The position numbers and the translations under genes are program-made. The notes beneath the pieces were generated by a model. The model saw nothing but the letters and a program-made list of their open reading frames with translations. It had not been told where the DNA came from and made no database searches. From Spisula solida (taxonomy: Eukaryota; Mollusca; Bivalvia; Venerida; Mactridae), in contig OX365955.1 in NCBI GenBank assembly GCA_947247005.1, forward strand, positions 6,024,001 to 6,088,000: a stretch of 64,000 nucleotides of DNA, written 5' to 3'. Every line of letters begins with the position of its first letter. The stretch's first letter is position 1. Of this stretch, positions 7,887-61,380 are shown one piece after another.

Positions 7887-7892
7887 TTTATT
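7887..7892 (-). terminator. Candidate distal AATAAA polyadenylation signal, U1A copy A
   Basis: AATAAA on the minus strand, about 2.06 kb past the U1A stop. An ATTGCAC U1A-binding word lies about 45 nt upstream in the transcript direction (7936-7942). The counterpart in copy B is 33353-33358. Use of this site is inferred only. Confidence 0.3.
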
Positions 7893-16300: not shown

Positions 16301-16365
16301 GCCAATAAAAGTATCATTTAAGTTAGTAACGTATATTATTAAAAGCGTCATCGAGAGGTTTAATA

Positions 16366-17744
16366 ACAAGAGGGCCCAAAGGGCCATAGGTCGCTCACCT
16401 GTCGAACTTGACCTAGATTTTGTTGAGATGGTCATTGTGACCAAGTTTTATACAGATTAGGCCAATATTGTGACCTCTAGTGACTACACAAGGTTTTTAT
16501 ATGATTGACCTAATGACCTACTTTTTTACCCCAGATGACCCAATATCGAACTTGACCTAGATTTTGTTGAGATAATCATTGTGACCAAGTTTCTTAAAGA
16601 TCAAGCCAAAACTGTGACCTCTAGTGACTACACAAGGTTTTTTTATTATTTGACCTTGTGACCTAGTTTTTTACCCGGATCACCCAATATCAAACTTGAT
16701 CTAGATTTTTTTGAGATGATCATTGTGACCGAGTTTCATAAAGATTAGACCAAAATTGTGACCTCTAGTGACTATGCAAGGTTTTTCTATGATTTGACAA
16801 TGTGACCTAGTTTTTGACCCAAGATGACCCAATATTGAACTTGACCTAGATTTTGTTGTTATGAACATTGTAAACAAGTTTTGTAACAATCAGGTAAAAA
16901 CTGTGACCTCTAGTGACTACGCAAGGTTTTTCTATGATTTGACCTAGTGACCTAGTTTTTGACCCCAGATGACCCAATATCAAACTTGACCTAGATTTTG
17001 TTGTGTTGATCATTGTGACCAAGTTTCGTAAAGATTATGCTAAAACTGTGACCTCTAGTGACTACACAAGGTTTTTCTATGATTTGACCTTGTGACCTAG
17101 TTTTTGACCCCGGATGACCCAATATCAAACTTGACCTAGATTTTGTTGAGATGATCATTGTGACCAAGTTTCATAAAGATTAGGCCAAAATTGTGACCTC
17201 TAGTGACTACACAAGGATTTTCTATGATTTTACCTTGTGACCTAGTTTTTGACCCCGGATGACCCAATATCGAACTTGACCTAGATTTTGTTGAAATGAT
17301 CATTGTGACTAAGTTTCATAAATATTAAATCAAAATTTTGACCTCTAGTGACTACACAAGGTTTTTCTATGATTTGACCTTGTGACCTAGTTTTTGACCC
17401 CGGATGACCCAATATCGAACTTGACCTAGATTTTGTTAGGATGATCATTGTGATTAAGTTTCAAAAATATTACGTCAAAATTGTGACCTCTAGTGACTAC
17501 ACAAGGTTTTTCTATAATTTGACCTAGTGACCTAGTTTTTGACGCCAGATGACCCAATATCGAAGTTGGCCTAGATTTTGTTGAGATGATCATTGTGACC
17601 AAGTTTCATAAGGATTAGGCTAAAATTGTGACCTCTAGTGTCTACACAAGCCAATTGTTGACGGACGGACGACGGACGGACGGACTGACGACGGATGAAG
17701 AGTGATCACAAAAGCTCACTCTGTCACTTTGTGACAGGTGAGCT
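16366..17744 (+). mobile_element. ACAAGAGGG-family tandem-repeat element
   Basis: The family is that of 13311-14698. It holds roughly ten degenerate units of GTGACCTCTAGTGACTACAC / GATGATCATTGTGACCAAG and ends with the ACGGACGGACGACGG stretch and GACAGGTGAGCT. The empty site is in copy B near 43540. It abuts the next element at 17750 with only an A-run between them. Confidence 0.7.
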
Positions 17745-17749
17745 AAAAA

Positions 17750-18463
17750 ACAAGAGATGTTTGTAAAACACGTATGACCCCATGGCAGCCCAATAGTCAG
17801 AAATGGGAAGGTCACAGTGACCTTGACCTTTGACCTCAAAATCAATAGGGGTCATCTACTGTTGCTGTCCAACCTCCATGTAAAGTTTGAAGATACTAGG
17901 TCAAAGCGTTTTCGAGTTATTGAACGGAAACCATTTTAATAGTCAGAAAGAGTAAAGGTCACAGTGACCATGACCTTTGACCTACTGACCTCAAAGTCAA
18001 TAGGGGTCATCTACTGTTGCTGATCATCCTCCATGTAAAGTTTGAAGATCCTAGGTCAAAGCCTTCTTGAGTTATTGAACAGAAACCATTGAAATAGTCA
18101 GAAATAGTAAAGGACACAATGACCTTGACCTTTGACCTACTGACCTCAAAATCAATAGGGGCCATCTACTGTTGCTGACCAACATCCATGTAAAGTTTGA
18201 AGATCCTAGGTCAAAGCGTTCTTTAGTTATTGAATGGAAACCATTTAAATAGTCAGAAATAGTAAAGGTCACAATGACCTTGACCTTTGACCTACTGACC
18301 TCAAAATCAATAGGGGTCATCTACTGATGCTGACCAACCTTCATGTAAATTTTGAAGATCCTAGGTCAAAGTGTTCTTGAGTTATTGAACGGAAACCATT
18401 TTATACGACCGACAGACAGACATGTGCAAAGCAATATACCCCCTCATCAAAGATAGGGGGCAT
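17750..18463 (+). mobile_element. ACAAGAGATGTTTG-family element, full-length-like
   Basis: It starts ACAAGAGATGTTTGTAAAAC and ends ATAGGGGGCAT. It contains four tandem units of about 150 bp, each with AAGGTCACAATGACCTTGAC, GGGGTCATCTACTGTTGCTG and TTATTGAACGGAAACCATTT. It is absent from copy B at the matching position. Confidence 0.7.
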
Positions 18464-20793: not shown

Positions 20794-22086
20794 GACAATG
20801 GCCAGGCTCAAATGTCAACAAGTTTTAGTCTATGGCCACCTGGCACACATATACCATCTTAAAGAATGTTTAAGCTTCTAAGTTATACAATAAAAAGGGG
20901 GGTCATGTATCTTCTAAGAAGCATGAATTTCGAAAATGACCCAATTTTGACGCTCGGAAATTCTGCATCGTGTGTCATCTTGACCCTCGATAAAATTGGC
21001 CTGTGCGTCACTCAGGTGTTCAAAAATCATATATATATATGGCAAATGCTTTATTGTAGCCTCGAGCGAATTTTCTGGTGGCAGGAAATCTCAACTAATA
21101 GTGCGTGCGTGTCATTTAAACATCAGACAAGCCGACAGACCACCCGTCGTCGTATAATCCGCTAATTATCGAGTGACACCTATCGCCCTTCTAGAAACAA
21201 TATTATAATTGATACAACTTACAAGGCTGTCAAAATTAAGCCCCGCCTACAAATGGGTTTAATTGGATAAAAAATGATAGATCTACTAAATTATTAAATT
21301 AATATGCTTACAGGAGCACGTGTGCGCTGATTATATCCATATTATGTTACGACTGACGAGTAATTAAAAAGTCACAATTTGACGATCCGTGAAAGCGGCA
21401 ACTTGAACGATAATCCAAAGGCCTAAACGAAATTTTAAATCTGATCAATACATATCTTTTACACTAAAAATTAAATTAAAAGTAAACAAAATGCATATTT
21501 GACTTACTAGACAGGCCTAGACACCAACTATTTTGGCCACTGGTCCGACAGGGCAAAAGCGCCAAATTTGTAAATAGGACAGTTACTGGTCCTTTAGAAT
21601 TTTCGCTGGTCCTTCTGGATTTTTACTGGTCGCGGACCAGTGTTAGTGTCAAGCCCTGCTAGAATATATGCCAATACATATTCACACGTGACGTGACGAC
21701 GACTGTGTTCTGCAGTCGTGTCGAGTTTTAACGAATGTCATCAGTTATGCCGATGACAGCGCTGGTATATAATGATCTTTTAAGACATTCTAAGGTTATT
21801 TAGCGTATCTTCAAGAGTTAAAATGCATTAATAACGACAAATGGTCAAAAGTACGAAGTCGGTGATAACCTTGAGTAGCGCAATTTCGGATATCGCATAA
21901 TTTCCTGATACGTTGGTTTTAGGTTGAATATTGGTTACTCTCTGGTAAATAAGCACAACACACAAGTTTAAAATAATGCCATTCATTGCTTAGTATGATA
22001 TGTCATCTGTTAAGTATAAAATACATTGCATATCAAGCCTACTGGAATTATAAAGAAACAAAAAATTTTCTGTTAGATTTTTAATT
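20794..22086. other. Copy A-specific stretch without a recognised gene
   Basis: The 99-codon open frame at 20866-21165 shows no known motif, and its codon pattern does not persuade me. The stretch also carries the ACTGGTCC repeat at 21512-21658. In copy B the matching place holds repetitive sequence instead (46381-49846). Confidence 0.4.
21512..21658 (-). repeat. ACTGGTCC short inverted-repeat element
   Basis: This is one of three copies of a roughly 150-bp element whose ends (CAGGCCTAGACACCAAC and its partner GTGTCAAGCCCTG) are imperfect inverted repeats, with several ACTGGTCC/GGACCAGT words inside. The others are at 41176-41322 and, in a VPS26 intron, 50806-50960. Confidence 0.65.
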
Positions 22087-22488
22087 TAGTACCGGGTAAG
22101 AATAATTTTACATTGTCATATTATGTGGAGACCAATAGTATTGTAGATCACTTGATTGTCGAGAGGAAGTCCTTCAAGAATAACAAGATGTTGAACATCA
22201 ATAATTATACAGTACATGCTAATATATGACTCACACACAATACTAATAATAATAATTTAGAATTAAAGACATTCCATTACTGGTACGGTTTTATTTCGAC
22301 GGATTAAATATTTTGACTCTTGGAATTTGGGGGTCAAGAGTCATTTTGACTCTTGGAAATTAGGGGTCAAGAGTCATGACTCTTGGGTTTTGAAACCTAG
22401 TGAAAGCCCTGGGACTCTTCGAGTGTATCACCATTTGGGCCGCTTATGTATTTAGTGGTTCCTTACCTTAAGCTAAAAATGCTAACTT
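22087..22488 (+). repeat. Right end of duplicated segment, copy A
   Basis: Nearly identical to 49847-50246. It includes a small tandem repeat with GACTCTTGGAATTTGGGGGT / AGGGGTCAAGAGTC. Homology stops at GCTAACTT in both copies. Confidence 0.75.
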
Positions 22489-33146: not shown

Positions 33147-33352
33147 ATACCTCCCGCTTACGAAAACATACAAGTGGAATAATAAATATAGACAATATAT
33201 CAGCTGTTAATTAAAGGTCGAGTTGAGTTGTGTCAAATTCTCCTTACTATATTACTGCAAACAACTGGCAACATTGCAGTACAGTATTCCACAAACAACA
33301 GATGATATTGCAAAAAGTAAATTAATAACCAGTGATACTTTGTTGATCATAC

Positions 33353-33358
33353 TTTATT
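33353..33358 (-). terminator. Candidate distal AATAAA polyadenylation signal, U1A copy B
   Basis: Counterpart of 7887-7892, with the ATTGCAC word at 33402-33408 again about 45 nt upstream in the transcript direction. Confidence 0.3.
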
Positions 33359-33712
33359 GAAAATCACCAAAAACATACAAATAGTGACATATTTCCGTAG
33401 TGTGCAATGGATATTCGTCTTTATATAAGTATACTCAAATGCAAAAGTGTGCACTTTTTAAATTTTGATTATTGTACAAGGTATCTAGCAGTAACAGTTG
33501 TTATGGTGACCGTGAAATGGTTCAGGGATGACTTAATCAATGTGGTAGGTATATTTGATCGAGACATCCTAATATTTGGCCGAGTATTGTTACCACTACG
33601 GCAAACATAGACCGTAAGATATATCATCACAATAATATCCAAAATCAAAAGTGCACTTTTTTTGCATTCAAGTATATTTAAACATTATTTTTGAAAGACA
33701 AGCTCAACAGAC

Positions 33713-33789
33713 TTTAATTGCAAAGTCCATTAACAATCTTACAAGAAGTATATAGTGCAATGTCTATCCATTCTGTTTCATTGTGCAAT
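33713..33789 (-). promoter_or_regulatory. Candidate U1A autoregulatory polyadenylation element, copy B
   Basis: The two ATTGCAC boxes (33783-33789 and 33755-33761) and the following ATTAAA (33713-33718) keep the spacing of copy A, as does the ATCCAT/ATGGAT stem around the first box. One base between the boxes differs from copy A. A further single box is at 35054-35060. Confidence 0.45.
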
Positions 33790-34225
33790 GATGGATTAGA
33801 ACTAACACTTCCAGTAAGACATTAAATTATTAATACAAACGCTTCACATGAAACAAACACTACTGTGAAGTGTTTTAAACACTGTCAAGCATTCAGAAAT
33901 CAGCATTATAGTACACTGCTGAGTATTCTGAACACAACACAGCATCTCAAACACCGGAGAATAGTAAATACCCAGGTAAATACAAATAGTCATTAATCCA
34001 GACTCCAGAGACACTTGTAAGGTAACTTCCGCAGTGCTCACAAGTTAATCAATTGACACAAACTTGTGGATCAGTGGCATGGATCACTTGGAAGAAACTA
34101 GGAACTCATGTACTTCAAATTACAAATGAAACTTCAATAGTTGAATTGACCACATGATTTCTAACCAGGATCCAGAGATGATACTTTTGTTACACAAATT
34201 GTACCACTGGGATTTACTAACATTA

Positions 34226-34419
34226 ACAAGAGATGTTTGTAAAACACATATGCCCCCATTGCAGCTCAATAGTCAGAAATGGTAAAGGTCACAATGACCT
34301 TGACCTTTGACATCAAAATCCTAGGACAAAGCATTCTTGAGTTATTGAACGGAAACCATTTGGTCTACAGACCGACATGTGCAAAACAATATACCCCCTC
34401 ATCAAAGATGGGGGGCATA
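34226..34419 (+). mobile_element. ACAAGAGATGTTTG-family element (copy B)
   Basis: Counterpart of 8757-8950, at the same place in the U1A 3' region. Confidence 0.6.
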
Positions 34420-35422
34420 CTCACAAAACAGAACACAGTGGACGTAAATATCAACCAAATGTTAGATGACCGAGGAGCGCTTAGGACAATTGTAAGTTTT
34501 TAATGGCTCCCCAACGTAAAATTACAACGAGGCATATTAAAATTTAACAGTATTATGCATAATATGCTTCTAGGTGTAAGATTAACTTCACGTTATCAGT
34601 CTGATGAAATTTGATATAAGAGGAACATCATACACACTGATTAAGCGAAAGAATATATTTAGGCTAGCTTCCATTGTTTAAGTGCTTGAAGCCCCATTAA
34701 GACCTAAACGGCTATTTTCAAAAAACAATAACTTGGTAACCCTTCTGCAGAATGATGCATTCGGAGCACTTTAGTTGAGCCCCAAAGGTGGAAAACACCA
34801 TAAGATGGAAAAAACAGAGTGTACAGTCTCCTGTTGGTCTGTAGAAAAAATAATGTATTGTAAACTAAACAATAATGCAAGATTTATAGTCTAAGGGAAG
34901 CAACTCTAGCAAAATTAGTATTTTGTCTTCAATACATGATACCAAGACAGTTAACACCCAAATGTAAAATGTGTGTAAGGGAGACGACTCAAATAATGGA
35001 ATCAAACTTGCCCAACAAACATTACAGTTGTTAAAATGATGTGCAGCTCCATCGTGCAATGGTCTAACATTTGGCTTATATGATGGGGGAAATATACAAA
35101 TGTATTTTGATCCAATCAATACAGGCACATGCAGCTACAAGAGACAGGTTTGAGACTAGCGCTGCTACTTAAATGAAAATGCTCTTTATAAGAAACATCA
35201 ATGTTTAAATTCCATCAACAATCTTAAAGTAAAGTAGTTTGATTTTTACATTCAATGTTTGTTGTGCTTTAATGTTATTTGTCAACATTTTTTTTAGTTT
35301 TATACGGCCGCCGATTCACAACACCCGTTATAAATTAAAGAAATAGCTAAACTTGAACCATATCTCTTCTAGCTACAAAAGTAACCCATTTGCAAATTAC
35401 AAAATATGAATGAATAGTGAGA

Positions 35423-38400
35423 CTATTTCTTGGCAAACGAGATTTTCATGGCGTTACTTGGCGTAATCTTGAAGCCTTGAAGGGCATCTTTAGCAGCAGC
35501 AGACTGGGTCTCGGTTTCAAACTCAACAAAAGCAATATCATGTCTTCCTGGAACCAGTCGCACTTCCTTGAAACCAGGGAATCTGAAATTAATAAAAGTT
35601 TATCATATAAGTATATAAATACAACAGAAATGCATGACCGAATGTGTGGTACAAGAACCAAGATTAACCGAACTCCCATATGTCCATACATGATATATTT
35701 GTGAAGAGAAGGACAATATCATTAATTACTAGCATTATTATGTTTCAACTTAGTTCTAGATACTTAGTTTGTTTTATGTCTCAATCAAATTTACTCTCGG
35801 ATAGATAGCACATTTTATGGTAAACAAAAGAACTTAAATTGCTGGATATTCTATGAATTTGACAGACCAGGAGAGGTTATCATTAGGTTTACGATAATTG
35901 TTGTAAGGCTGGCATAACATTGATCGAAAACCTTATAAAGCTTCAGGTTATTGGCCCTAGAAGCTTATCACACATTAGTCAAGATAACAGAACTTACTGA
36001 TTGAACAGCATGGACAACATCATCTCATTGGTCTCTTCTGGTAGATTTGTCAAGAACAAGATTTGGTTTGGTGGTTGTTCTGGTATACTAGCAGGTGCTG
36101 CCGGTGGAGCGCCGGTAGATGGTGGAGCTGGAACATACATAGACATATAATATTACATCACTGTAAACAATAACCACTGTCAACATAAATATACCTGGTA
36201 CCAGTATATAAATAACACATAGCTTTGAGGGTAACAGTAAAAATGTTGGCCCTCGGAAAGTACTGTTACCCTAGGCCAAAGTAGTTTCAGAGGGCTGACA
36301 TTTTTACTGTTACCCACAAAGCTATGTGTTATTTACTTTATAACCCCAAACTTTTTTCAAGAAAATACTGAAAAAAATTTACTTTCACCCTGTGACAGTA
36401 AAAAAATGTTCAAGAAAATACTGTTAAAAATTTACTATCACCCTGAGACAGTAAAAAATGTTCAGTCAAGTGGTACCATGGACGTTACAGTAAAATGTTC
36501 CCAGTTTGCCTTTGGGAAATTAAAATTACTAAAAAAGTGAGGGGTAATATTATATTAATATGAAATGGGAGAGTGATAGGAAATAAATGCTGTCTGAATC
36601 GCTTATAGGTCAACAAAACTGAATGCCAGGGCTGTCCATAAATTGTAATGTAGCCACTGGCCAGTAATTGTGGTAGTCAGTAGTACTTTGGTGTGTACAA
36701 TGTGGTTTTTTCGTTTACCTGTCATTCCACCAGTAATTTCCTATTATTGTAAAAATTTGGCTATAACACTTAACAGCAAGATGATTTTATTACTGATATA
36801 CGAGTAGACAAAAGTTTACCTTGTGTTGGTGCTGGTTGTTGTACTACAGGCTGTACAGGTTGGCTAGCTTGTTCTCTAGCTGCTCTCTCTCTAAAATCAT
36901 AAACAGCGAGGAGATAAGTTTACATTACATGTAATTAGTAATATCCCAACTTCATTCTAATGCATACAAATTAGGACTGAGATGATTACTTGGTTAACAA
37001 GTCACTAAAATTTGCAAGCAATACAGAAGTCCCCTACCGGTTTGAAGCCATGACCTTTAAACTATGTTCAATGTGTCTGTTGCCATAGCAACCACAGTCT
37101 TTGTCAGAATCAAAAAATATTTAGATGGGCATAATCTCCTTATTGGTTCCTACCCACATACCAAGTTTCCTAAACATAGCTTGGAAACAGTTTAGAGTAA
37201 TGGCAGGATCCAGATTATTGACAGACGGACAGCAAACCTACCTCCGGGTGAAAACTGGTAGGGGACTAATTAGATACTATTTAAATACTTGGTGAAAGCA
37301 GTTTCAATTAACAAAACTGCTAATCATTCAATTATGGGAAACATTTGCCCCATCTCCATGGTATACAAGAGACTGCAGAACATGTCTTCAACAAGAACTA
37401 GAATTCCCTGTAGCTGCTTAGAATAAAGTACACATACCTGGCTGCGTTTGCTTGACCTCGCTTCCTCTTCATTTTTTCAACAGGCACTTCTTCATCTTTC
37501 TTTTGTTTCTTCGGACGTTCCACAAATGTTCCTTTCATTTTAGCAACCATGTCTGAATCCTTCTTAGAATACTGGATTCTCTAAAGTGACCATAAAAATA
37601 CAAATTTTAATCAGTTCAAATTGTATTAATGTAATGCAACATATCACACCTGAAACTTTGATTGAAATGAGTGGTGAAGTCTAATTTTTGTTCTTTAATT
37701 GTGTTATATACTCAGCAGTTTTGTATAGATTTTGTAAGATTGGTACCATGATTAGCCAAGAATGAATCACATTCTCATGGCGAGTGAAAAGAATAGAAAA
37801 CAAATGTGATCAACATATAAGTCCAGGGGTCCATCTGAGACATAATGCCAAATCCTAGACTGTTTCGGGTGCCATTAATTCACATCCCTACACCAAAACT
37901 TGTGTCAAACATTGTTCAATAGTTAAAATTTGGTTTATGAAATAATTCAAATTTCAAATGACCACAACTTGGTCAAAACTTTGATTTTTTTCATAAAATA
38001 ACATTGATTTTCAGTAGAAAAGTTAATTATTTCTAGTGCAGCAAATCCAAATTTCCTGATTATTCCGGAATTGTAAGACTCCTAACTATAAACATCATTG
38101 TAACTTACCACCTTTGGTTAAAAATATTCTATCTTACCATAGGTTTGTCATAAAATGGAAATCCCTGCATGGATCTTAGTGCATTAGTACTACTGTTAAT
38201 ATCCTTAAATATAACAAACGCCTGTCCTCTCATCTTCAATGTTTTCAATGCTACAATATCCAATATCTGTCCAAACTGTGAGAAGATTGCGTACAATGAT
38301 TTCTTGAGTTCTGAAAAAAACAATAACAATTTTTAAAAAACATTCAATATTGTTAAATTTAGGTCCCACTGTTCAACAGTATTTCAGTCACACATATATA

Positions 38401-39788
38401 AAGCCTACGTATTTTACCACGATAAGTTCATGCTCAGGCCAGTGATTTTTCTAGAACAAAATTAAACAGCCTGTGCCTTTAAAATTGGGAAAGTTTAGCG
38501 CAACAATTCGTGAAATTGGGAATTATTAAATATGATTGTTTTGGTTAAAAGTAGAGATGGCAACGAGTACTAAAATCGGTACTCGGGTACTCGGTCATTC
38601 TTCCGATCGAGTACTCGGGTACTCGGAAAACTATAAATGTGAATGATATTTGGGACACAGAAATGTTGCAATGTAAACGTGCGTGTTCAACATCAAATAG
38701 AACATCGTATATGCCCGTCCGTTCTGTTCAGTTGATGGTCAATTCTAGATCGGTAGAAGAATGTTGAACCAATAAAAACTAATAAAAAGAACAACAATAC
38801 AGTGTAAATGCAGTATAAACTATAGTCAATAACGCTAGAAATTAGAATAATAACACATAAACAACTAAAGGGGGAATACTCTTATCAACCGGTGACATAG
38901 TAATATTTACACAGCGTGACGCATGCGAGTTATCGTTCTTTTATATACGCTTGAGAACGATTATAATTTCAAGTAATATTTTATTAATTTCTTCATCGAA
39001 TGTCATACCCAATAAATAATAACCGCCAATTAAACATCGATGACAATTAATCGGATTGATGTCAACAAAAGAACACCAAGCTACGTGTCATAAACAAATT
39101 AACAGACGATGATTGACAGGTCAGTGTTGGATATTACCCTTCAGGCTTGCAATTAGCGACCGCGTAAGCGATTAAGGATTGGTGACACGTTGTTAATTGT
39201 AATTTTAGTTGACCAGATAACACTTGGACACGTTCTGTACAAGACAGGATTAACAATTTTTTTTTTTGTCCGAGTACTCGAATACTGATTTTGATATTCG
39301 ATAATCGGACCTTTGAACGAGTACCCGAGTACTCGGGTACTCGTTGCCATCCCTAGTTAAAAGTGTTCATATTTTGCTCTTTTCTACTGATAATACTCTA
39401 GTCCTTTGTAGCAACGACTTTTGCAAGTTTGAAAATCTATTGTTTTGACTTTAAAACAGCTTTGAAACCAGCAATTAAAGGGAGAAAATATGCATACTTT
39501 TTGGGAAAAATATGATTTTTTGGGAAAAAATGGAAGTTCTTTTGCTAGGGTAGGCCTGTATTCGGCCCTAAAAATAGCCCAAAAAATCACTGCAAGCAAA
39601 CTCAAATTGTTGAATAAGATGCTTTCACAAGGTATGCAATATTTTTGTTTAATTAAGATCTTAATAATTCAATCTGCAAATTCATTGGCACAACTTGATA
39701 TGTTGGATAGTGAAATATTCTTACCATCTTTTTTAATCTTCTCATTCAAATTGTTGATGTAAATGGTATGATTCGGACGGATATCCAT
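35423..39788 (-). CDS. SNRPA: U1 snRNP A / U2 B'' protein (U1A), copy B
   Basis: Second complete copy of the spliceosomal U1A/U2B'' gene. Coding exons in transcript order on the minus strand: 39788-39725, 38310-38138, 37580-37438, 36890-36820, 36127-35998, 35582-35423. All are GT-AG with the same phases and lengths as copy A, giving 246 codons. Both RRMs are intact. RRM2 has Thr217 and Gln220 (codons at 35513-35515 and 35504-35506). Gln is what human U1A and fly snf carry at the equivalent of 220, so copy B looks ancestral and copy A derived. Other coding differences seen are synonymous. Its 5' flank was later split by a 3-kb insertion, which leaves the coding exons untouched. Confidence 0.93.
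36211..36334. repeat. Long near-perfect hairpin in a U1A intron, copy B
   Basis: Same fold-back as 10741-10864, with a few loop and arm substitutions. Pairing is kept. Confidence 0.75.
37028..37267 (-). mobile_element. AGTCCCCTACCGG-family element in a U1A intron, copy B
   Basis: Counterpart of 11558-11797, predating the duplication. Confidence 0.65.
38552..39355. mobile_element. hAT-like non-autonomous transposon, 804 bp, copy B
   Basis: Uninterrupted version of the element at 13086, with the same TAGAGATGGCAACGAGTAC end and the 8-bp duplication GTTAAAAG (38544-38551, 39356-39363). It holds about 68 bp (around 39085-39150) that copy A lacks, and lacks the nested ACAAGAGGG element. Confidence 0.87.
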
Positions 39789-49020: not shown

Positions 49021-49846
49021 TAGTCACCAGAGGTTACAATTTCAACTTAATCTTTATGAAACTTTGTCACAATGATCATGTCAACAAAATCTAGGCCAAA
49101 ATCGATTTTGGGTCATCTGTGGTCAAAAACAAGGTCACATGGTCAAATCATTAAAAAATTTGCAATAGAGGCTGAATTTCCTTAAATTTTATTCAGAAAA
49201 TGTGTAGGGTCACCATAGGGGTGTGCATGCACAAGTACGACAGGTGAGCGACCCAGGGCCCTTTGGGCCCTCTTGTATTAGAGCATTTCTTGTCTGGAGC
49301 ATAACTTTGTCACCTTAAGTTCAAATGACTCAAGATTTGGTATGGTATGGTATGGTATGGTATGTTTCTTGCAATAAGCCGAAGTGCAGTGCGCAAGAAC
49401 CATAACTCTACCTGTCATAGTTTTTGAATTATTTGCCTTTGATTAATTTTATTTGAGCATTTCTTGTCCGGCGGATAACTTTGTCACCAAGAGGTTGAAT
49501 GACTTGAAATTTGGTATGCATGTTTCTTACCAAAAGTCCAAGTGCAGTACACAAGAATTGTAACTCTACCTTGTGCCATTTTTGATTTTTGTCCCTTTGA
49601 TTGATTTTATAAGCATTTCTTGTCCGTGGCATAACTTTGTCACCATAAGTATTAATGACTCCAAGATAGGTATGCATGTTTCTTGCTGTGACATTTTTTT
49701 GTCCAGTGCATCACTTTGTCGTTTTTAGTTCAGATGATTAGAGAACTCTTGTGAGTCGATATGTAACCCAATAGTGGATAGTTTTTCATGACAAATGTGC
49801 ATGTCGTCAGGCGACACATGCGACTCGCGGAGCTTTTATTAATTTA

Positions 49847-50246
49847 GTACCGGGTAAGAATAATTTTACATTGTCATATTATGTGGAGACCAATAGTATT
49901 GTAGATCACTTGATTGTCGAGAGGAAGTCCTTCAAGAATAACAAGATGTTGAACATCAATAATTATACAGTACATGCTAATATATGACTCACACACAATA
50001 CTAATAATAATAATTTAGAATTAAAGACATTCCATTACTGGTACGGTTTCATTTCGACCGATTAAATATTTTGACTCTTGGAATTTGGGGGTCAAGAGTC
50101 ATTTTGACTCTTGGAAATTAGGGGTCAAGAGTCATGACTCTTGGGTTTTGAAACCTAGTGAAAGCCCTGGGACTCTTCGAGTGTATCACCATTTGGGCCG
50201 CTTATGTATTTAGTGGTTCCTTACCTTAAGCTAAAAATGCTAACTT
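49847..50246 (+). repeat. Right end of duplicated segment, copy B
   Basis: Nearly identical to 22087-22488. It ends 107 bp before the first recognised VPS26 exon. Confidence 0.75.
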
Positions 50247-50353: not shown

Positions 50354-53300
50354 AGTTTCTTTGGTTTCGGCCAAAGTGCCGAAGTTGACATTGTCTTAGA
50401 TGGACAAGAATCAAGGAAAACTGCTGAAATAAAAACAGAGGAGGGAAAGAAAGAAAGATACTATTTATATTATGATGGAGAGACTGTATCTGGAAAGGTA
50501 ACAGCTTACCAATAGGGTGGGCGATAACCATAAAACATGGCGATGCGGTTTATTGCGATTTATGCCAACCCCAGTCTGCCAAATTAGCACTTGTCCTGTT
50601 GTAATTTGTTGATTCAGACAAGTTTCTTCTGCAGGAAATATGTATAAAGGAAACCTATTAAATTTTGCTGACAAATTCAGAATCAGACAAGTAGTTGAAT
50701 AATTGATTGGGAAATTACCATGTGAAAGGTTTATACTTTCATCAACTGAAAGATTTAAGAACCCAAAAAGTTCTTTTTAGTGCAGATTGGAAAATAGTAT
50801 TTAGTCAGAGCTTGACACTAACACTGGTCCGCTGGTCCGAGACCAGTGAAAATTCTGGAGGATCAGTGAAAATTCTGGAGGACCAGTAACTGTCCTACTT
50901 ACAAATTGGGCACTTTTGCCCTGTTGGACCAGTGGCCAAAATAGTAAGTGTCTAGGCCTGTTAGTTGCATATTTTTGTAATTAAAAAAGCTTATCAGTAC
51001 ATTTCTAAGCAATACTGTTTGAAGGTGCCCCTATGGTGATATTTGGTGAATTAATCCATGTTTGTTTTTCAGGTGAATGTAAATTTAAAGAAAGCTGGAA
51101 GTAAAATGGAACACCAAGGCATAAAAATAGAATTTATTGGTCAAATTGGTAAGCTGAAGATGAATTGTTTTAACAATTTTTTTATACCAGGAATTTATTT
51201 ACAATTTTGACGGCTTAAATTTTGGTCCCATTCCCCTGCCAAAGAGTATGTTTTTTCCCATGAAAACTTTCCTTCCCTATTTTGGGATTCAATTTGATTA
51301 TGAGCTGCTTATACTTCAAATTGTGTATACATTGTCTTGGTTCCGAATGTTTGAACCACATTTTGATGCTCAACTGATTGCATGGTTTAGAACATAACTT
51401 AGAACATTATAACTGCCCTATTCTAGAAGTAAAGTATCTTCCTACTGGGAATTTCACTGCAGTTATGACCTAATCTTTAAGAAACCCTGCCACAATGCTT
51501 GTAACCATAAAATCTAAGCTATGTTTGATACAGGGTCACATGGTGTCAAAACTTAGGTCACGCCAGAATGATCTTGCTACATGTAATTGAACCAAACATT
51601 AAATTGTAAGGTTAGTGCTTTAGAGTCAAATTGCACTCTTTACTTACAAATAAATTATAAATCTTTTGAAACTAAATGTATTGAAGGTGACATTTGGAGA
51701 CGCAGAAGCAACATTTTACATGTAGTTAGTATTTTCCTTTTCAGAGTTGTATTATGATAGAGGCAATCATCATGAGTTCACATCATTAGTCAAAGAACTT
51801 GCAAGACCTGGAGAAATGTCACAAAACACAAGCTATAATTTTGAATTTCAACAAGTGGAAAAACCATATGAATCTTATACTGGTGCTAATGTACGGCTGA
51901 GGTAAAGTAGCTTATGTTGTTATATTGTACTGTAAAATCACATATTTTCGTGGGTATTAAATTTCATGGATTTTGATAACAATGCATTTTCGTAGGGGGG
52001 TCGAAAATTTCCGGACTACAGAACATTAAAGGGTATAACCCATGTCTCAATTTGAGAGGTTGATTAATCGTCAGCATGTGTTACTCGGCAAGTGGGGCAA
52101 TTGACTGTGTGTGTTCAAACTTTTAAAAGTTTCAGTGATAAGCATGTATTTTCATGACAAGTATTACTGAAATGATTATCATGCCCCCTAAGCAGAAATG
52201 GGGGTATGATTCTTTGCAATATATTCAAATTTTGTTGCCATCTTAGAAGCATCACTTATTTATGGTCATTATTGGCAATGTGTTGTTATTTTTATCTGAT
52301 TTGAGGCAAAATTTTCTCTAAAAAGTAACATTTTATTCATATTTGTGTGTTGATTTATAAATTTGTCCATAAGTTAAGTATATTGTTTTTACCATGTCTT
52401 AATCGTGATTGTACAGCACTTTTGAATGTGTATATACATGAAAAAAGGGCTATATAAATATGGTATAATAATAATAATAGTATTTCAAAAATGTTTTTAA
52501 TCTTAAAATTTCAAACAGAGGGAGATAGGGATTCATAATTTGTATTGAAGCTATTTCAATGGTATTTAAATTTGAAGGCTTATATACAATGATTTTCAAA
52601 GTTCCCCTATTTTCCTCTTTTTGACATAATTTTCCCCTTTTGGAGACCCAACATAATTCTGTTAGAGATGAAAAAAACTTTTGGTTTGAAAACCAATGAT
52701 CAAGGATAAAATTTCCATATTTCTTGTACATAACTAATTTATTTAATGCTAAAAGTTTAATTCCAAAAATCTTAAAATCTCGTTTTGAATGCTTTTAATT
52801 TCAGATATTTCTTGCGAGTGACAATAGTTAAACGGTTGAGTGATTATGTTAAAGAACAGGATATAGTGGTCCATACATTATCTCAATATCCAGAAATGAA
52901 TTCCAGTATAAAGATGGAAGTGGGCATAGAAGATTGTTTACATATAGAATTTGAATATAACAAATCAAAGTAAGTCAGTTTCTGAGCTAGAAATATGTTG
53001 CCGTGGCCAGTAATGGTCAAAATCCTCTACAAATTAGTTAGCTTTTGAGCTAGCAATATGTTGCCAACACGAGTTACGGTCAAAATCCTCTGACGAAGTA
53101 CTTAGCTACAGCACAAAAATTGTAAGGTTGATCATGTCCAGCTGTGACAAGAAAACGGCCTCCACAATTCCAGCCGCTGTGTACTTGTTTTTGTTCACTG
53201 TTTTTGTGAGTTTTAACATCTTTGTTGTGTAATTATGGTTTGAGATTTGGTCAAACACCAAATTTTTCAGCTGTTATTGTTGCTAAAAGCATGTACTGCA

Positions 53301-56300
53301 GCAGTGCTCAACTTGGGAGATGTACATGTAGGAGTCAGGGATATCGTGTCTGATGTCTTATCAGGCAGTCCAGTATTTGAGTCTGGCTTAGACTGCGTGG
53401 TGTTTGATCAAAAGACAAGTACTGGTTAGTTTCCCAGCAAGGGGTTAGTAGTTGTAAAAACATGAGGTGCTAACTACAACTGCATGTGTTTATTATTATA
53501 CCCCACATCTTTGATGAAATGTATATTGCTTTGCACATTTCGGCCAGTAGGTCAATCTGTCTGTCAAAATGGTTTTGATCAATAACTCAAGAACGGTTGG
53601 GTCCAGAATCTTCGAATGTTAGAGGAGGTTGTACTCCATTCATCAGTATTGATTTTGAGGTCAGTAGGTCAAAGGTCAAGGTCGCTATGACTTTTCACAT
53701 TACTGACTATGTGACTGCCATAAGGGCATGCATGTTTTACAAACATCATTGTTATTGTAGAAAATACATTATAAATGCTAGTAATGAATAGAATATAGAA
53801 GTATTTTCTTTTGTTAATAAGATACCACTTGAAAGATGTGATAGTCGGCAAGATATATTTCTTGCTTGTACGGATAAAAATACGCTACATGGAATTAGCG
53901 ATAGTACGACGAGAAGTGACTGGAGCAGGTGGTTATATAATAGTCCTGTACAGCCTCTATACGATGGTCACTTTTCACCTATGATAGCAGGGCACGTATT
54001 CACACAAATCTTAATTCAATTTTTGTTTTATTTAATTCAATTTGATATTTTGTAAAGAAATTTTCTTAGATTAAAAACATTTCACTTAGAAATAGCAAAA
54101 TATCAATTCTTACTGATTCATAGTGCAATACTTACAGACAAAAAATCTGTATAAGACAAAGACTACCAACTGGTAGGGTACTTTTACAAAAATCTTTGAA
54201 AATTATTCAACAAACTTGGAAAATAAGTTTTTCTTGAAAAAAACTGTTTAAGAATTTTTGTGAATATTGGCCCAGGAGTTATATAAAAAAGTAACAGTTG
54301 CCTAAATCATATGAAATTGCAAGTTTTAAATTTTTTTAATTGACTATAAATTTATAATCATGGATTATTTATAACCATTTTGACTAAATGTCAGAATTTG
54401 TTTCTGTTACAAAATTCTTAAATAGCTTGAGTCAAGCATGCTGTATTCTCACAGCTGTTGATAGATTTAGATTATAAAATGAGCAAAGAATGACTGTTGT
54501 TGAAAGGTGTCCATTGTTTGGAGGTTACTGTTTATAGAGGGTCTGCATTAGTTCAGGCTGTTGTCTTGTCAGTAAATTGTTGTTTGTGTATTTTTAGAAT
54601 TTACTTGGTGTATATATAGCTATGCTTTTACTTTACTTATTATTTCCTTCAATATATGTGTATGACTTCAATAATGCCATAGTAACTTTGTAAACTTAGA
54701 TTTGAACAATGAGGCAATGGATCATTAACAGTTGAATTTATCGTACCATTTTACTACTTGTTTCTAAAGTAAAAATCTGACCTCAAAAAAGTTCACACTT
54801 TTGAAACAACATAATTAGAAAAATGGTAAGAATACATGCTTATAAGGGTACCATTTTATTCATCAAATATTGTTGATATTTGTAATTCAAGATTGCATTC
54901 TTTATACTTTTCTGATAACAATTTTGAAAAGAAAGCTTTTAAAAATAGGTGCACATCTTTTGGAACTCAGTAAACTATGGATGAAAATCCATTCTTTGAC
55001 CCCATCAAGACTAAAGTCTATTTGGAGATATGGACAGCTATGTAATGTCAGCTGTTTTTGAATTGCCTAACATCTTAACAAAAAGTCATTGACAGAGTTA
55101 GTATGAAGACATTTTGAAGAATTACACTGCATTGTTTATCTTAGTTTTTGAATATATTGGTATACTTGTATGTTAGCAGTTGTTCTAGGACCTAGATACT
55201 GATACACGCCCGAATCGATGAACAATTTTCTTTTGAAACAAGAATTAAATCTGCTGTATTGGGTTTGAGCAAACCTTAGAACAGTTTTATTTGATTGTAA
55301 AAGCCCCACTTTGGATATTGTAATATGTAATACTAGTAGTCTTTTTTTGTATTAGCAAGTGTGGAAATTAATTTAACATAGCATGGTGAAAATAATGATG
55401 CATTGAATATATTGTATTCATTCTATCAACAAGGCTCAAATATGCAAGTATACCAAGGATATTATTCACAACATTTTAAGCAAAAACTGTTAGACTTTGA
55501 AGTGGAAAATTTATGTGGGAGATATCAGAAGGTCGTAAGTACTACTTTCAAACTTATAAGCCTCGTGCATATTTGAAATCTGCATCTCAAGGCGCTTCTT
55601 ATGAGCCTATTTTCATGTAAATCGGAAGTGGTCATGTTGACCGAAGTGAAGTTTAAAAGGCTTGTTTTTCCATAAGTAAAGAGTTGTTTTCAGACAGTTT
55701 TTTCTTGTTTTCTCAAAATATTGATTTTGTACTTACAACCTTCTAATTCTAAGGCAGCGATATGTGTCATATGAATTATAAACTTAAGTGTACATGTCTA
55801 AGCTTTCCATTAAGTTGTTTTTATAAATTACCGACCCTGGTTTTAGGTTAGCTTTTATCCCTTACTGGTACTACATAGGAAAGACTTCTTGTCACAAAAA
55901 CAGTGTAGAAAAAAAACCTTTGAACATTTCAAGTCAAGTCTGACTAACAATCTTAAAATGTTGTGGAATACTGTTATCATTTTAGAATGCATTCACTGTA
56001 GAAATGTGTGCACTATGGTAGTTTTAAGTTGATCTATTATTGAGCCGAGCATAAAATACCTGTGTTTCCATTCTACCAACCATGACTTTACCTGTGTGTG
56101 CCTTCTGCATAACGTGGAAGTTAATCTGCCAGGTTCAGTGATTTCCCAGAATTAGTGAGGGGAGACCTAATGATTTAGTGCTAGACTGTCTTGATAGGAG
56201 TATATCACAAAGTTTGTCAGCGCTTGTTCTCCTTAACCATTGGTAAGATTTCAATTAAACTTGAATAGTTTGTTTCATGCCCTTTTAGGAAATTTAAGTG

Positions 56301-59300
56301 ATAGTTATATGAACATTGCCAAAGTTATGGTCTTTATGGGTGACATACCCTTCAAGTTTTCAGTCAACTTTGCCTAAAACTTGCCTGAAACCGGAAGGTT
56401 AGTGTTGTGTTGTTTTGGATTGGATGAGAAAAGACAGGTAATTTATACAAGGCCCAGCTTTAGTCGTTGTTGTTGTGGAGATTTGATCGTCTTGTCCTTG
56501 TGAACAGGTATCATTTAAAGGATGTGATAGTGGGAAAGATCTACTTTCTACTGGTGAGAATAAAAATCAAACATATGGAGATACAGATTATAAAAAGAGA
56601 GAGTACAGGAACAGGTATTCATTCCTTGCCATTATTCATTACTGTAAACCTAGAAATTATTTCACGCGATTTAGTTTCGCCGAGTTCGCGATTGGTAGAA
56701 ATTTGCGAAATTAAGTCTCCGTGAAATTAATATGGACATTGCAGGAAACTTATAAATGCAAAAACTTGTAGTCGTGAATATGCTGACGATCAGCAAAATG
56801 CGAAAGTTAGTATTTGCGAAGTAAATTGTTTTATAGTATTCATTATGTTACGAGTCTACTGTTGATCACTTGATATTCTTGTGATCTTTATTTCATGAAT
56901 TTCGGTAACAGAATTATTTCGCAGTTTTATGAATTTGCAGTTGAATGTTCTACATGTATTATGGGTTTTCATGTTAGGAAAGTATTTTTACGTTTTCATG
57001 TTACTGTTCATGTTAATATTGATATGTGAAAAACTCTATTTGCGAATAATAGCACAGGTAAAAAACCATAATAACCATGCGGACCATAAAGCTAGCAAAT
57101 TTGAACTTTCAGACATTTTGCATGCGGAAATACTAGCGTAATTGTCGATTTCTCAGAATGATGTAAATTTGTCAATATTTCCAAGTTGCCATAAGTTAAC
57201 CACTTATAAAGTCTTTCAATACCCATTGTCATTGTTGCTTTTAATCATGGACAATCTACGACAGTCTTGGGATAAAAATATTTATAAAAAACAACTGTAG
57301 TATGTAATCTATAACCAAGGCTCTTTGAAAAGTTTTTAAACTTGTCAGTCCGAATTGGTGAAATAAGTGAATGATCCTCTTCGTCTAGTAGAATAATACA
57401 GGATTTTCTGTCAGTCCTAGTAAAATTTTGTCAGTCAAGACTAGCGGACTGACAGTTTTCGCAAAGCTTGATAACCTTAGATTATTTTGACCGAAACTTT
57501 TGAGAAAGAAAATAAGTACATGAACAAGTATCTATTCATTAGTGATTCTGTGTCTGATGTAGATGTTGCATCATGCAGGGAACTTTCAAAATTTTAGACA
57601 GGGAGTTATATATGTATAAGCGTAGCCGTATGCTTTTCTTGGTTTTGTTTGTAGATTACTTGTGTTGTCGTCTTGTCTAGTTGTTTTGTTTTATTTTGGC
57701 AGTTTTTAATGTATGGATTATTGGTCCAGTCCATTGTATATGTGTGTGCTTTAATTCTAGTGAACTTTTAACATATTTTGAATGTATACCTAAATGTTTC
57801 GTTGGTACATGTATTATAATATAAAGGATACATAATTTATGTTTATACTTAAATTAAGCATAGATTTTAACTGTCTTTAAAATTTGTTCATGAATTTGTG
57901 AATTCATATTTCTCTGCTAAAATATACTAAATACATGCCAGATCTCCCGCATTATGCGTGAGTCTCATGCATTTGAGACTCTAGTCAGGCATGATCAGGG
58001 CCAATTGATCAAATCTCATGTATTTCTAGGGCATACTGGAACCTGACATTTTTTGTTTACATTATGAAAATGACCACAAATATAAGTTTAAATTGCTTCA
58101 TGAAGCATGCATGGTATTGTCATCATAGTAAAATAAGTGAAAACTGCATACAAATCTCCCTCATTTAAATGAAATCTCTTGCATTTCCATCACCAATCTC
58201 ACGTAAAGGGGTCTGCTAAACATGGCATGTATGATACTATCTTGAACCCTGCTGCTTTAGTCTAATGGTTAAATTGAGAAATTACTGGGAGAATGGGAGC
58301 ATGTAGGTTTGACCAATTAACCAAATAAAATGATATTGGTATAGCTCCAGTGTGCGGTCCTCTATATTTTATATGAAGGGTAATTCTAGGACTGATTGGC
58401 CCAGTGTACAGATAATATGACTGGTTACACTGCAGGGCACTATTACGGAAATTGTAAACTTACAATCAAATTTAAATTGTTCATACTTTGTTTACAATTA
58501 TTAAGTGTGGTAAATGGAGCTGCAATACTAATAATGATTCAATTACTGAACCCCGACAAACCATATCCGTCACTAATTGGCAGTTGTTATAGAATTATAA
58601 AGAATTTAAATTTGAGCCTAACTTTGAGATTTTCGTAAGTGCTTTAAACAGTAGCCATATGACTACCGTAACTATAAAGTCTGGATCCTCACCATCTACA
58701 TAAAGTACCTTTTGCTACATTTTGTGATAAATCAGTTGGTGTCATATACTTTAACATTTGTTGGTCGGTTGGTCTATAGGTCAGTAAACTAAGTGGTTTC
58801 TACAATAATTAAAAATTTAAAGAATTGACAAAGCTATGGTCATTTGAAGTTCCATAATCTGAAATTTAATAATAAAACAATGTTTGAAACCTAGTTGAGG
58901 TGTAGCGATGTGTGCTAATGGCATCCGAAACAAACTTGCAACTTGTTTTCATTATGCCTCAGTAGAACCCCTGTATTTACTTATTGATTTGATGTATTAC
59001 AGGTCCAAACACATTCAATGAGAATGAAACTATAGCAAAATACGAGATCATGGACGGTGCTCCAGTAAGAGGCAAGTATTCCACCTTTCCACAAGTTTGT
59101 CTCTGCTTGTTCTCCTCTCACTGCTCAGATTTCAATTTAACTTCTCAAGAATACTAAGTTGGTACCAAGCCTAGTTGTGCATATTGTCAGGAATTTTAGG
59201 TCAGGTTATATTTGCTAGAGTTATGGCCCTTAGTGGGATTCATACATTTACCCTTCTTGTTATCTTTAAACTTTCTTCATCTTTATTACAGGAGAGTCAA

Positions 59301-61380
59301 TACCAATCCGGCTGTTCCTCAGTGGGTATGAGTTAACGCCAACCATGAGAGATATAAATAAAAAGTTTAGTGTTAGGTATTACTTGAACCTCGTTCTTGT
59401 CGATGAAGAAGAAAGACGATATTTCAAACAACAGGTACATTTCAATTGTAATTGTATTGTAACTGTTCATTGAGGATTCATTCTGGTTGAGTATTATAGG
59501 GAGACATGTTGATTTTGTGATGGAAGTCTTGATGGCTTTTGTTAAGTTTGTCCGCGTTTGTTCTCCTTAACCACTGACCCAATTTTAATAAGACTCCTTA
59601 CTTGGGTCTAAGAAAGATCATTTTAAGTCAGACAGGGTAGGCAGCACTCAACTTAACCAACCGAGCACAGAAAAAATTATAAACACACAAGGCACAATGG
59701 CCAACTGAACCAACCTAGCACAGAAAACATAAAACACATACAAGGCACAAGGCACAAGCCTACTTATGCATATTGACAGGATGATTTATGAGTTATGGCC
59801 CTTTGTTAAAGACAAATGTTTTTGTGTCAAATACCCCCGTTGTCCACCACCACTGCTGGGAGATGGTTAGTCTTGCTAAATGGTTTAATACTGTTCTTGT
59901 TCATCCTCATAATTATACTGAGGTACAATCGACAGCTTAGTTTAGAGAGTCTGCTTTAAGTGTAGTAGGTCCTGGGTTTGATCTCAGGTTGCTCCATACC
60001 AAAAATGAAATAAAAATGGTACCAGTTGTTCCCTTGGTTGACATTCAGCTTTAAAGGAAAGCTGATTTGTCTCTCTCATACACTCGTGGGGAGGTTTGCC
60101 ATCAGGAATGAAGTGTTGAGAATGATTAAATTAAATAAAAGTTGGAAAAACTTGTTAGTCCCCTACCGGTTTTTGACCGGAGGGGACTATAGGTATGCCC
60201 TCCATCAGTCAGTCAGTCAGTCAGTCAGTCAGTCAGTCAGTCAGTCAGTCAGTCAGTCAGTCAGTCAGTCAGTCAGTCAGTCAGTCAGTCAGTCAGTCAG
60301 TCAGTCAGTCGTCAAAAAATCTGGATCCTGACATAACTCAAACAGTTTCCAAGCTTAGTTTATGAAACTTGGTATGTGGATAGGGGGCAATAAGGGGATT
60401 ATGCACGTCTAAAAAGATTTTGATTCTGACAAAAATTGTGGTTGCTATGGCGACAGAAAGAGTGAAAATATGCCCAAATCTGGATCCTGTCATAACTCAA
60501 ACAGTTTCCAAGCTAAGTTTATGAAACTTGGTATGTGGATAGGGGGCAATAAGGGGATTATGCACGTCTAAAAAGATTTTGATTCTGACAAAAATTGTGG
60601 TTGCTATGGCAACAGAAACATTGAAAATGGCTTAAAACTGGTAGGGGACTTCTGTATTGCTTGCAATTCTTAATTACTTGTTTCTCAATTGATGTAAAAT
60701 AAATTATAGTATAATCTAACGAATTACTAGGTTTTGTTTCCTGATCATGGAGATCTGTGTGAAAGGTGAATACTTTGTCTTGTGAGTTAAGAGTTCTGTG
60801 TAGTTGAGTGAGGAGAATGCAGAGATATGAACCTGATCCTCAAACCCTCTATTAGCATCATTGACAGTTGATTTCTTCTCTATATTTAACTTAAGATGTT
60901 TGTTTTTATAAGCGAAAAGCATTATGACTACACATGAAGCTGTAACATCATTGATCATTGTAAACAATGATGCACTTGTGGCAAATTGAAATAATGCAAC
61001 AAATTATGTCTAAATTAGTGTATGGGAGAGACATATTAATTTTGTGCTGGACATCTATATGGATGGATGTCACTAAGTTTGTCACTGGTCCAATTTCAAT
61101 GAAACTTCACATGAATACTTGGTACCTAGCCTAGTTGTGCATATTGCCAGGAATTAAGGGTCTGATGACCTTGTGTCGAAAACCTGTCTTGTTGATTTCA
61201 GATATATTCAAAAACGATCAATTGTATTTGTAGGAAATCACAGTGTTCCGCAAAGCAGACAAACAAAGGAAGCCGGCTGCTGGCTACCAGACACATCGAT
61301 CAATGATGCAGCATAACCCTTCCTCTCCACCTCAGAGCGACCCCGAACCAAACACAGAAAGCAAGGAAGAAAAAGAATGA
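50354..61380 (+). CDS. VPS26: Retromer subunit VPS26 (VPS26B-like), 5' exon missing
   Basis: VPS26 is the arrestin-fold subunit of the retromer core (with VPS35 and VPS29) that sorts cargo from endosomes to the Golgi or cell surface. Exons: 50354-50497, 51073-51148, 51745-51901, 52805-52969, then 53822-53928 or 56508-56614 (alternatives), 59003-59071, 59292-59434, 61234-61380 with TGA. Phases join without error. The first exon found starts at Ser2 (SFFGFGQSAEV), so the initiator Met should lie on an upstream exon that I could not place. With that Met the length is 336 residues, the same as human VPS26B. Conserved blocks include GQIELYYDRGNHHEF (N-terminal arrestin lobe), KMEVGIEDCLHIEFEYNKSK, and APVRGESIPIRLFL to RYYLNLVLVDEE (C-terminal lobe that binds VPS35). 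The Ser/Pro/Glu-rich tail is poorly conserved, as usual. The intron after 59071 has a GC donor. Confidence 0.95.
50806..50960 (+). repeat. ACTGGTCC short inverted-repeat element in a VPS26 intron
   Basis: Third copy of the family at 21512 and 41176, more diverged and with a small internal duplication (GTGAAAATTCTGGAGGA twice). Confidence 0.65.
53497..53755 (-). mobile_element. ACAAGAGATGTTTG-family element in a VPS26 intron, diverged
   Basis: It reads in reverse: GATGTTTGTAAAACATGC at the plus-strand right side, and AGATGTGGGGTATAAT at the left. It includes TTGACCTTTGACCTACTGAC-like and TTGAGTTATTGATC words. It lies just before the alternative exon 6a. Confidence 0.55.
53822..53928 (+). CDS. 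VPS26: VPS26 alternative exon 6a
   Basis: The 107-nt exon is bounded by AATAAG| and |GTGGTT. It has the same phases as exon 6b and encodes 35 whole codons. The first 20 residues (from YHLKDV) are identical to those of 6b, yet 14 of those 20 codons use a different synonymous form. The last 15 residues differ at eight positions (6a RYMELAIVRREVTGA; 6b KHMEIQIIKRESTGT). Including both exons, or neither, would shift the frame because 107 is not a multiple of three. The 6a ending recalls human VPS26A (HMEL), the 6b ending human VPS26B (KHMEI). Confidence 0.88.
53929..56507 (+). other. VPS26 intron between alternative exons
   Basis: 2.58 kb of AT-rich sequence with no further exon or transposon ends that I can define. 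Any selector sequences controlling exon choice would be expected here or in the intron before 6a, but none is evident by eye. Confidence 0.5.
56508..56614 (+). CDS. VPS26: VPS26 alternative exon 6b
   Basis: 107 nt, acceptor GAACAG| and donor |GTATTC. This is the version closest to VPS26B of vertebrates (KHMEI, KRE-TGTG). It joins in frame to the upstream exon ending 52969 and to 59003. Exon 6a lies 2.58 kb upstream. Confidence 0.92.
56615..59002 (+). other. VPS26 intron, no gene seen
   Basis: Small open frames at 56929-57141 and 58396-58638 lack support. The stretch around 56640-56850 with TTCGCG/CGCGAA words looks like a decayed repeat. A weak relative of the ACTGGTCC repeat (CAGTCCGAATTGG... 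CGGACTGACAG) lies near 57345-57450. Confidence 0.4.
59072..59073 (+). other. GC splice donor (GC-AG intron) in VPS26
   Basis: The exon ends GTAAGAG and the intron starts GCAAGT, the best match to the known GC-donor consensus. The frame-keeping join gives ...PVRG|ES. The nearest GT (CCA|GTAAGA, seven bases upstream) would break the frame. Confidence 0.85.
59930..60156 (+). repeat. tRNA-derived SINE in a VPS26 intron
   Basis: CAGCTTAGTTTAGAGAGTCTG (A-box region) and CTGGGTTTGATCTCAGG (B-box region) are followed by a tail (GGTACCAGTTGTTCCC, TGTTGAGAATGATTAA) related to the tails of the SINEs at 957-1130 and 3410-3595. Confidence 0.5.
60157..60650 (+). mobile_element. AGTCCCCTACCGG-family element with a (TCAG)n array
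   Basis: The inverted ends AGTCCCCTACCGG / CTGGTAGGGGACT enclose a (TCAG)n run and two tandem ~130-bp units (TCTGGATCCTG, AACAGTTTCCAAGC, TTGGTATGTGGATAGGGGGC). The family also occurs in the U1A intron in both copies. Confidence 0.75.
60205..60310 (+). repeat. (TCAG)n microsatellite
   Basis: About 26 perfect units of TCAG. The open frame crossing it (60026-60331, repeating Ser-Val-Ser-Gln) is an artefact of the repeat. Confidence 0.95.

Follow-up and report, generated by a model that had tools for sequence, protein, structure and literature searches.

In this study, we analysed a window of 64,000 nucleotides from the bivalve Spisula solida (NCBI GenBank assembly GCA_947247005.1, contig OX365955.1, positions 6,024,001 to 6,088,000 of the forward strand), which contains a gene for VPS26, a subunit of the core of retromer, the cell's coat for recycling proteins. 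Two neighbouring exons of this gene, termed 6a and 6b, encode alternative versions of one segment of the protein, and we consider it very probable (roughly 0.87) that VPS26 is a single-copy mollusc gene in which one exon was duplicated in tandem long ago and that the resulting pair is used in mutually exclusive splicing. Molluscs that carry the pair probably make two kinds of retromer from one gene. Retromer diversity is usually attributed to paralogous genes (VPS26A, VPS26B and VPS26C) and to adaptors.

A tandem pair of exons in one VPS26 gene

Exons 6a and 6b have the properties of tandem-duplicated exons: they are adjacent, homologous and internal, stand in tandem in identical phase, and have the compatible length of 107 nt each, with AG 5' and GT 3' of both. 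A preliminary description of this DNA had proposed such a pair, and we recovered it at 53822-53928 and 56508-56614. Read in the frame set by the exon at 52805-52969, residues 183-202 are identical at 20/20 positions over 14 changed codons of 20, and the 15 positions of residues 203-217 include 8 differences, in agreement with the counts first given. The 16 nucleotide differences in the former segment fall at codon positions 1, 2 and 3 as 2/0/14, and the 20 differences in the latter as 9/4/7. When 16 differences were placed at random over 20 codons, the peptide was left unchanged in 0 of 200,000 placements. Synonymous change between the exons is saturated across their whole length, and replacement divergence amounts to 0.17 overall, with a value of 0 for residues 182-202 and of 0.50 for residues 203-217. 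The random placements and the saturated synonymous sites bear out the earlier proposal that both exons have been under selection at the protein level.

The spliced gene has an open frame of 336 residues with either 6a or 6b alone. Since 107 leaves a remainder of 2 on division by 3, inclusion of both exons leads to an early stop at codon 221 and skipping of both to one at codon 188, a loss of frame anticipated in the preliminary description, and later exons follow both stops. An early stop with later exon junctions is the usual trigger of nonsense-mediated decay. This frame logic, together with the presence of 6a in relatives, supports the proposal of a homologous pair that would be built for mutually exclusive use.

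The gene lies on the + strand from 50354 to 61380, as located by tblastn with human VPS26A as the query. Whole-protein tblastn gave no other match in the window below E 0.9, so that only the 6a/6b exon appears to be duplicated, and tandem duplication of the whole gene or part of it was rejected. A recent origin of the pair was likewise rejected: when 52970-54500 was aligned with 55601-57500, direct similarity was limited to the exons (53811-53930 with 56498-56616), from which it follows that the duplication is not recent. Throughout the assembly (931,988,947 bases, 36 contigs) the alternative exon occurs in two copies, 6a and 6b. A search of the assembly for PF03643 returned seven matches, six within the VPS26 gene and one on another contig, the seventh being a VPS26C homologue (E 9.6e-20 to human VPS26C); the assembly holds a single VPS26A/B-type gene. 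The 6a isoform matches PF03643 with 457.7 bits (cut-off 27) over residues 6-281.

Exon 6a in other animals

To survey relatives, we combined three protein searches that together retrieved 205 homologous proteins: one of 5.8 billion proteins, with the 6a form cut to residues 196-240 as the query (best 120 of 1077 matches), and two with the full 6b form (best 120 of 5376) and the double-exon part of protein P0002 (best 120 of 3681). The database is clustered at 90% identity, which collapses isoforms 8/336 residues apart into one entry, so that a missing 6a in an entry is uninformative and counts of 6a are lower bounds. The mark of 6a, RYMELAIV[RK]RExTGAG, is present in at least 10 of the 205 homologues, from at least nine other mollusc species. 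Among the matches listed, these are the bivalves Crassostrea virginica (isoform X2), Tegillarca granosa and Mya arenaria, and the gastropods Haliotis rubra (X2), Biomphalaria glabrata (X4), Babylonia areolata (X2 and X3), Patella caerulea, Batillaria attramentaria and Nucella lapillus. The preliminary description had named the absence of an open-frame 6a from all relatives as evidence that would count against the pair; 6a peptides occur in at least nine other molluscs. That 6a is a decayed duplicate or an artefact of assembly is extremely improbable, given its open frame, its two intact splice sites, its saturated synonymous change and the 6a peptide in at least nine other species.

Isoforms of the 6a type are already in public automatic annotations, and four of the nine species carry 6a under isoform numbers X2, X3 or X4. 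RNA-seq is the usual basis of automatic isoform models. In the land snails Bradybaena (P0052, P0138) and Arion (P0026), we also observed a second VPS26 version with KYMELQVIKRETTGSG, a candidate for either the 6b of a paralogue or a modified 6a.

Three annotated proteins, P0002, P0003 and P0192 (from Nucella, Tegillarca and Mya), contain 6a followed by 6b, joined by linkers of 19, 10 and 18 residues, and reveal that the order of the exons in these species is 6a-6b. Taken at face value, they would reflect joint inclusion of 6a and 6b through displaced splice sites, so that VPS26 would contain the hairpin twice. For the window, each GT within 120 nt from the 6a donor onwards was paired with either the regular acceptor of 6b or an AG up to 120 nt ahead of that acceptor, and 4 of the 70 combinations keep the frame open. 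Nevertheless, the plain splice sites are frame-incompatible, the linkers are unrelated among the three species, the seven other 6a proteins among the matches listed have 6a alone, and a gene-finder forced to take both exons would give models of this kind. We consider joint inclusion highly unlikely, and the double-exon proteins are probably products of gene-finders that bridged both exons.

Age and direction of change

In the four species with both exons, S. solida included, 6a peptides differ from one another at 0-1 of 36 residues and 6b peptides at 0-2 of 36, whereas 6a and 6b differ at 6-8 of 36. We built a maximum-likelihood tree from 48 hand-picked exon peptides (those of the window and of named homologues), which has 36 mostly invariant columns and is weak internally. 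The 11 molluscan 6a peptides formed one clade with an ultrafast bootstrap of 96, isoform X2 of the nemertean Lineus longissimus (KYMELAIVKRETTGSG) was its sister with a value of 80, and the 6b peptides fell with annelid, brachiopod and other sequences. From the clade with support 96, we infer that the duplication is older than the split between bivalves and gastropods. This split occurred more than 500 million years ago. The duplication is perhaps older than the split between molluscs and nemerteans as well; the link of Lineus to 6a could be partly convergent because Y204 arose elsewhere too.

Within the set, hemichordates, sea urchin and cnidarians have KHMELAIIKRETTG[ST]G and most arthropods have KHMEIAIIKRETTGSG. 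Compared with the outgroup form, 6a carries K203R, H204Y, I210V, K211R and S/T217A, to which the window adds T214V, and 6b carries mainly A208Q. As 6a has more changes from the outgroup form than 6b, we read 6a as the derived isoform and 6b as the canonical one, near the ancestral state. At residue 208, it is the A of 6a that is ancestral. The sampled named spiralians outside 6a have Q208 (molluscan 6b, three annelids, a brachiopod, a bryozoan, a flatworm and the nemertean Tubulanus), which is also present in vertebrate VPS26A and some unnamed proteins and is a weak mark. Because 6a keeps A208 while these spiralians have Q208, the duplication may go back to the spiralian base, in which case 6a would have been lost or left unannotated elsewhere.

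The same comparisons bear on whether the two proteins differ in what they do. Splicing could be exclusive and the proteins equivalent, the pair being kept for regulatory or historical reasons while its residue changes are nearly neutral. In support of this, the changes between 6a and 6b are mostly conservative, and the outgroup form has L207 and A208 in common with 6a and K203, H204, I210 and K211 in common with 6b. However, seven of the eight 6a-specific residues are constant in the window, in three other bivalves and in six gastropod genera, with R211K in Babylonia X3 as the one exception, and residue 214 alone varies freely. Neutral drift is unlikely to have held seven residues constant, and we regard equivalence of the two proteins as improbable.

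Splicing of the pair

Mutually exclusive splicing would connect the exon at 52805-52969 with one of the two alternatives, and the chosen alternative with the exon at 59003-59071. With both exons or with neither, the early stop would lie 5' of exon junctions and the mRNA would be removed by nonsense-mediated decay, such that only mRNAs with a single exon choice would yield protein. The same frame arithmetic would also serve a poison exon, that is, a 6a included along with 6b to turn the gene off, since double inclusion leads to the stop at codon 221. A poison exon does not need a conserved peptide, yet the 6a protein has been kept while its synonymous sites became saturated, and 6a alone gives a full protein; we therefore judge this role to be very improbable.

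Two ways of enforcing a choice between 6a and 6b were considered and rejected. The intron between the exons, at 2579 nt, is too long for steric exclusion, and incompatibility of U2 and U12 splice sites does not apply to donors GTGGTT and GTATTC with AG acceptors, neither donor being of the U12 type (consensus /RTATCCTT). On a rough score from a donor matrix, the donors of 6b (0.88) and 6a (2.04) are the lowest two of eight, the next being 2.33, and 6a is the only one of nine acceptors with AAG, the others being CAG or TAG. That both donors look weak would fit a choice made by regulators, which we offer as a lead. Upstream of 6a by about 90 nt is TGCATG (53729-53734), a region with two GCATG against 0.45 expected in 300 nt; as GCATG is frequent across the gene (15 times within 50354-61380), we make no claim for a splicing factor.

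Pairing between introns was assessed against shuffled sequences. For the three pairs of introns around 6a and 6b, 2, 8 and 20 of 40 dinucleotide shuffles reached the observed score for ungapped complementarity, and 19 of 32 shuffles had a duplex energy as low as that of intron 52970-53821 with 53929-56507. A 25-nt inverted repeat flanks 6a (53185-53209 with 55892-55916; 88%, T-rich/A-rich, blastn E 7e-4). If paired, it would loop out 6a, a lead that comes without statistical backing from the whole introns.

Several observations weigh against mutually exclusive use of an old, functional pair. The use of splice junctions in S. solida is predicted from the gene sequence, and the whole introns around 6a and 6b show no pairing beyond that of shuffles. 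Isoform labels come from automatic annotation, and two of them, Dreissena X1 and Aplysia X2, stand on 6b forms; given that 6b forms also bear isoform numbers, a number alone is no proof that the 6a/6b exon is what differs. Both Babylonia entries (P0006, P0010) are of the 6a type and on contigs of different length, so that the exon pair may have outlasted a duplication of the gene in this whelk. No species among the 205 homologues has a 6a-only together with a 6b-only protein, as expected from clustering at 90%. Because three annotated proteins include both exons via shifted splice sites, strict exclusivity is not proven. The Y204 of the 6a mark recurs in P0111 and P0114 (RYMEVAIIKRE), in P0068 and P0073 and in the second version of the land snails, which means that single residues are not diagnostic of 6a. 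Finally, the changes between 6a and 6b are mostly mild (K to R twice, for example).

What exon 6a may change in the protein

Residues 203-217, the segment swapped by 6a, are predicted with low confidence to belong to a strand (202-214) beside the strand formed by residues 188-195, in the C-terminal arrestin lobe. This lobe binds the N terminus of VPS35, according to a passage of PMC9636581, and comparison with the available text of Leneva et al. (PMC7990337) places the alternative exon in the lobe for VPS35 and SNX3, not in the dimer lobe. Structures of mouse VPS26B are on record with the substitutions L197S/R199E and R240S/G241A/E242S, in a numbering that fits the clam protein. L197 and R199 lie within the alternative exon and are the same in 6a and 6b. 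Both sets of substitutions were reportedly made to disturb binding of VPS35, and mutation of L197 and R199 is reported to weaken it.

By exchanging residues 203-217, 6a would leave the fold unchanged and tune how VPS26 is seated on VPS35 and on the neighbouring site for sorting nexin and cargo. We put this function forward tentatively, and the functional effect of 6a may be small. Possible but rather doubtful is the broader proposal of a regulated isoform switch in the retromer core that would predate the split between molluscs and nemerteans, with 6a retromer differing in its behaviour towards VPS35, sorting nexins or cargo.

Comparison with vertebrate VPS26A and VPS26B

Like the clam pair, vertebrate VPS26A and VPS26B provide two versions of VPS26 in one animal, but they are separate genes whereas 6a and 6b are exons of one gene. 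The preliminary description had seen a partial likeness between the two sets of differences, and this part of it did not stand. Eight positions distinguish 6a from 6b. VPS26A and VPS26B are unlike each other at five of them, and residue 207 (L/I) is the one position where the pair of states is shared, with L being the outgroup state. In a comparison of 37 residues, nine differences separate 6a from VPS26A and eight separate it from VPS26B, the figures for 6b being six and two, respectively; 6b is close to VPS26B because both are near the ancestral state. With one of eight positions in parallel and 6a no closer to VPS26A, we rejected a split resembling that of VPS26A and VPS26B. A passage of PMC10987540, citing another study, states that the C-terminal regions of VPS26A and VPS26B differ in cargo selection. 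The same article has SHIP164 binding as a trait of VPS26B only and maps it, in the part available, to residues 1-160, outside the segment encoded by 6a and 6b.

Gene structure and other features of the window

Splice sites and open frame define nine exons of VPS26, both alternatives included (Table 1). The exon with the start codon, 5' of 50354, was not located by tblastn or by reading of splice sites and frame. The GC donor at 59071/59072 reads GAG|GCAAGT, and a nearby GT (CCA|GTAAGA) would shift the frame.

Table 1. Coding exons of VPS26 and the intron between its alternative exons, in window coordinates.
Feature	Position	Strand	Basis
Coding exon, residues 2-49	50354..50497	+	tblastn to VPS26, splice sites, open frame
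Coding exon	51073..51148	+	tblastn, splice sites, frame
Coding exon	51745..51901	+	tblastn, splice sites, frame
Coding exon directly 5' of the alternative pair, donor GTAAGT	52805..52969	+	tblastn, splice sites, frame
Alternative exon 6a, 107 nt, YHLKDVIVGKIYFLLVRIKIRYMELAIVRREVTGA	53822..53928	+	splice sites, frame; 6a homologues in at least 9 other molluscs
Intron 6a-6b, 2579 nt	53929..56507	+	splice sites
Alternative exon 6b, 107 nt, canonical version, YHLKDVIVGKIYFLLVRIKIKHMEIQIIKRESTGT	56508..56614	+	splice sites, frame; groups with other spiralian sequences
Coding exon 3' of the alternative pair, GC donor	59003..59071	+	tblastn, splice sites, frame
Coding exon	59292..59434	+	tblastn, splice sites, frame
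Last coding exon, stop codon 61378-61380	61234..61380	+	splice sites, frame

Repeats lie in and near the gene. A 412-bp repeat with 99.3% identity (22078-22488 and 49835-50246) has its second copy ending about 100 nt 5' of the first located VPS26 exon, and the last VPS26 intron contains an array in which the tetranucleotide TCAG is repeated about 28 times, and after it a 159-bp unit present twice (60205-60314, 60317-60628).

Further away, a 5.6-kb segment is repeated with 98.2% identity (7681-13316 and 33147-38790), surrounded by the paired blocks 6129-7398/26737-28004, 15001-15833/39148-39978 and 28439-29236/32349-33146, and looks like a young segmental duplication. On the minus strand, both copies have a stretch whose translation resembles the last RRM part of the spliceosomal U1A/U2B'' proteins (about 10094-9957 and about 35563-35426). 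The stretch in the first copy matches U1-A with E 3.3e-19, and no Pfam family was matched by the 46 residues. Tandem arrays, whose units measure 98, 145 and 155 bp, follow one another across 13487-18401.

Discussion

Tandem exons with mutually exclusive use form a well-defined class, as set out in passages of Martinez-Gomez et al. 2022 (PMC9741552). The human tandem exon substitutions described there resemble the clam pair in that they are adjacent homologous internal exons with conservative changes, are ancient and make a difference in one segment; VPS26 is named nowhere in the main text of that paper on 236 human events. A second parallel comes from coq-2, whose exons 6a and 6e form a pair in helminths, annelids and molluscs according to passages of an eLife 2020 paper (PMC7434440). 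Here too, one version is canonical and the other lineage-specific, across phyla that include molluscs. The difference lies in the evidence: coq-2 was tied, in the same passages, to a metabolic switch by RNA-seq and by exon removal in C. elegans, whereas the VPS26 pair is known here from sequence alone. Mammalian VPS29, for which an isoform is reported (PMC12260524), likewise shows that a retromer component can come in several forms, but it is another subunit.

In the searched literature on splicing and exon duplication of VPS26 and on such exons in molluscs, as far as titles and passages show, we found no description of the 6a/6b pair, and in the one mollusc paper with both VPS26 and splicing, a study of ageing in the sea hare, the matched passages are not about this exon. 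The class of mutually exclusive exons is known; the VPS26 pair is real, old and unusually clean.

Altogether, an exon-swapped second VPS26 represents a natural experiment, in which eight mostly conservative changes appear to have been retained since before bivalves and gastropods split. The differences between 6a and 6b mark a region of VPS26 that has a role on which selection can act, one that is testable by means of two proteins differing at eight positions. They also provide a concrete case of coat diversity that is likely made by splicing, in an animal with one VPS26A/B-type gene.

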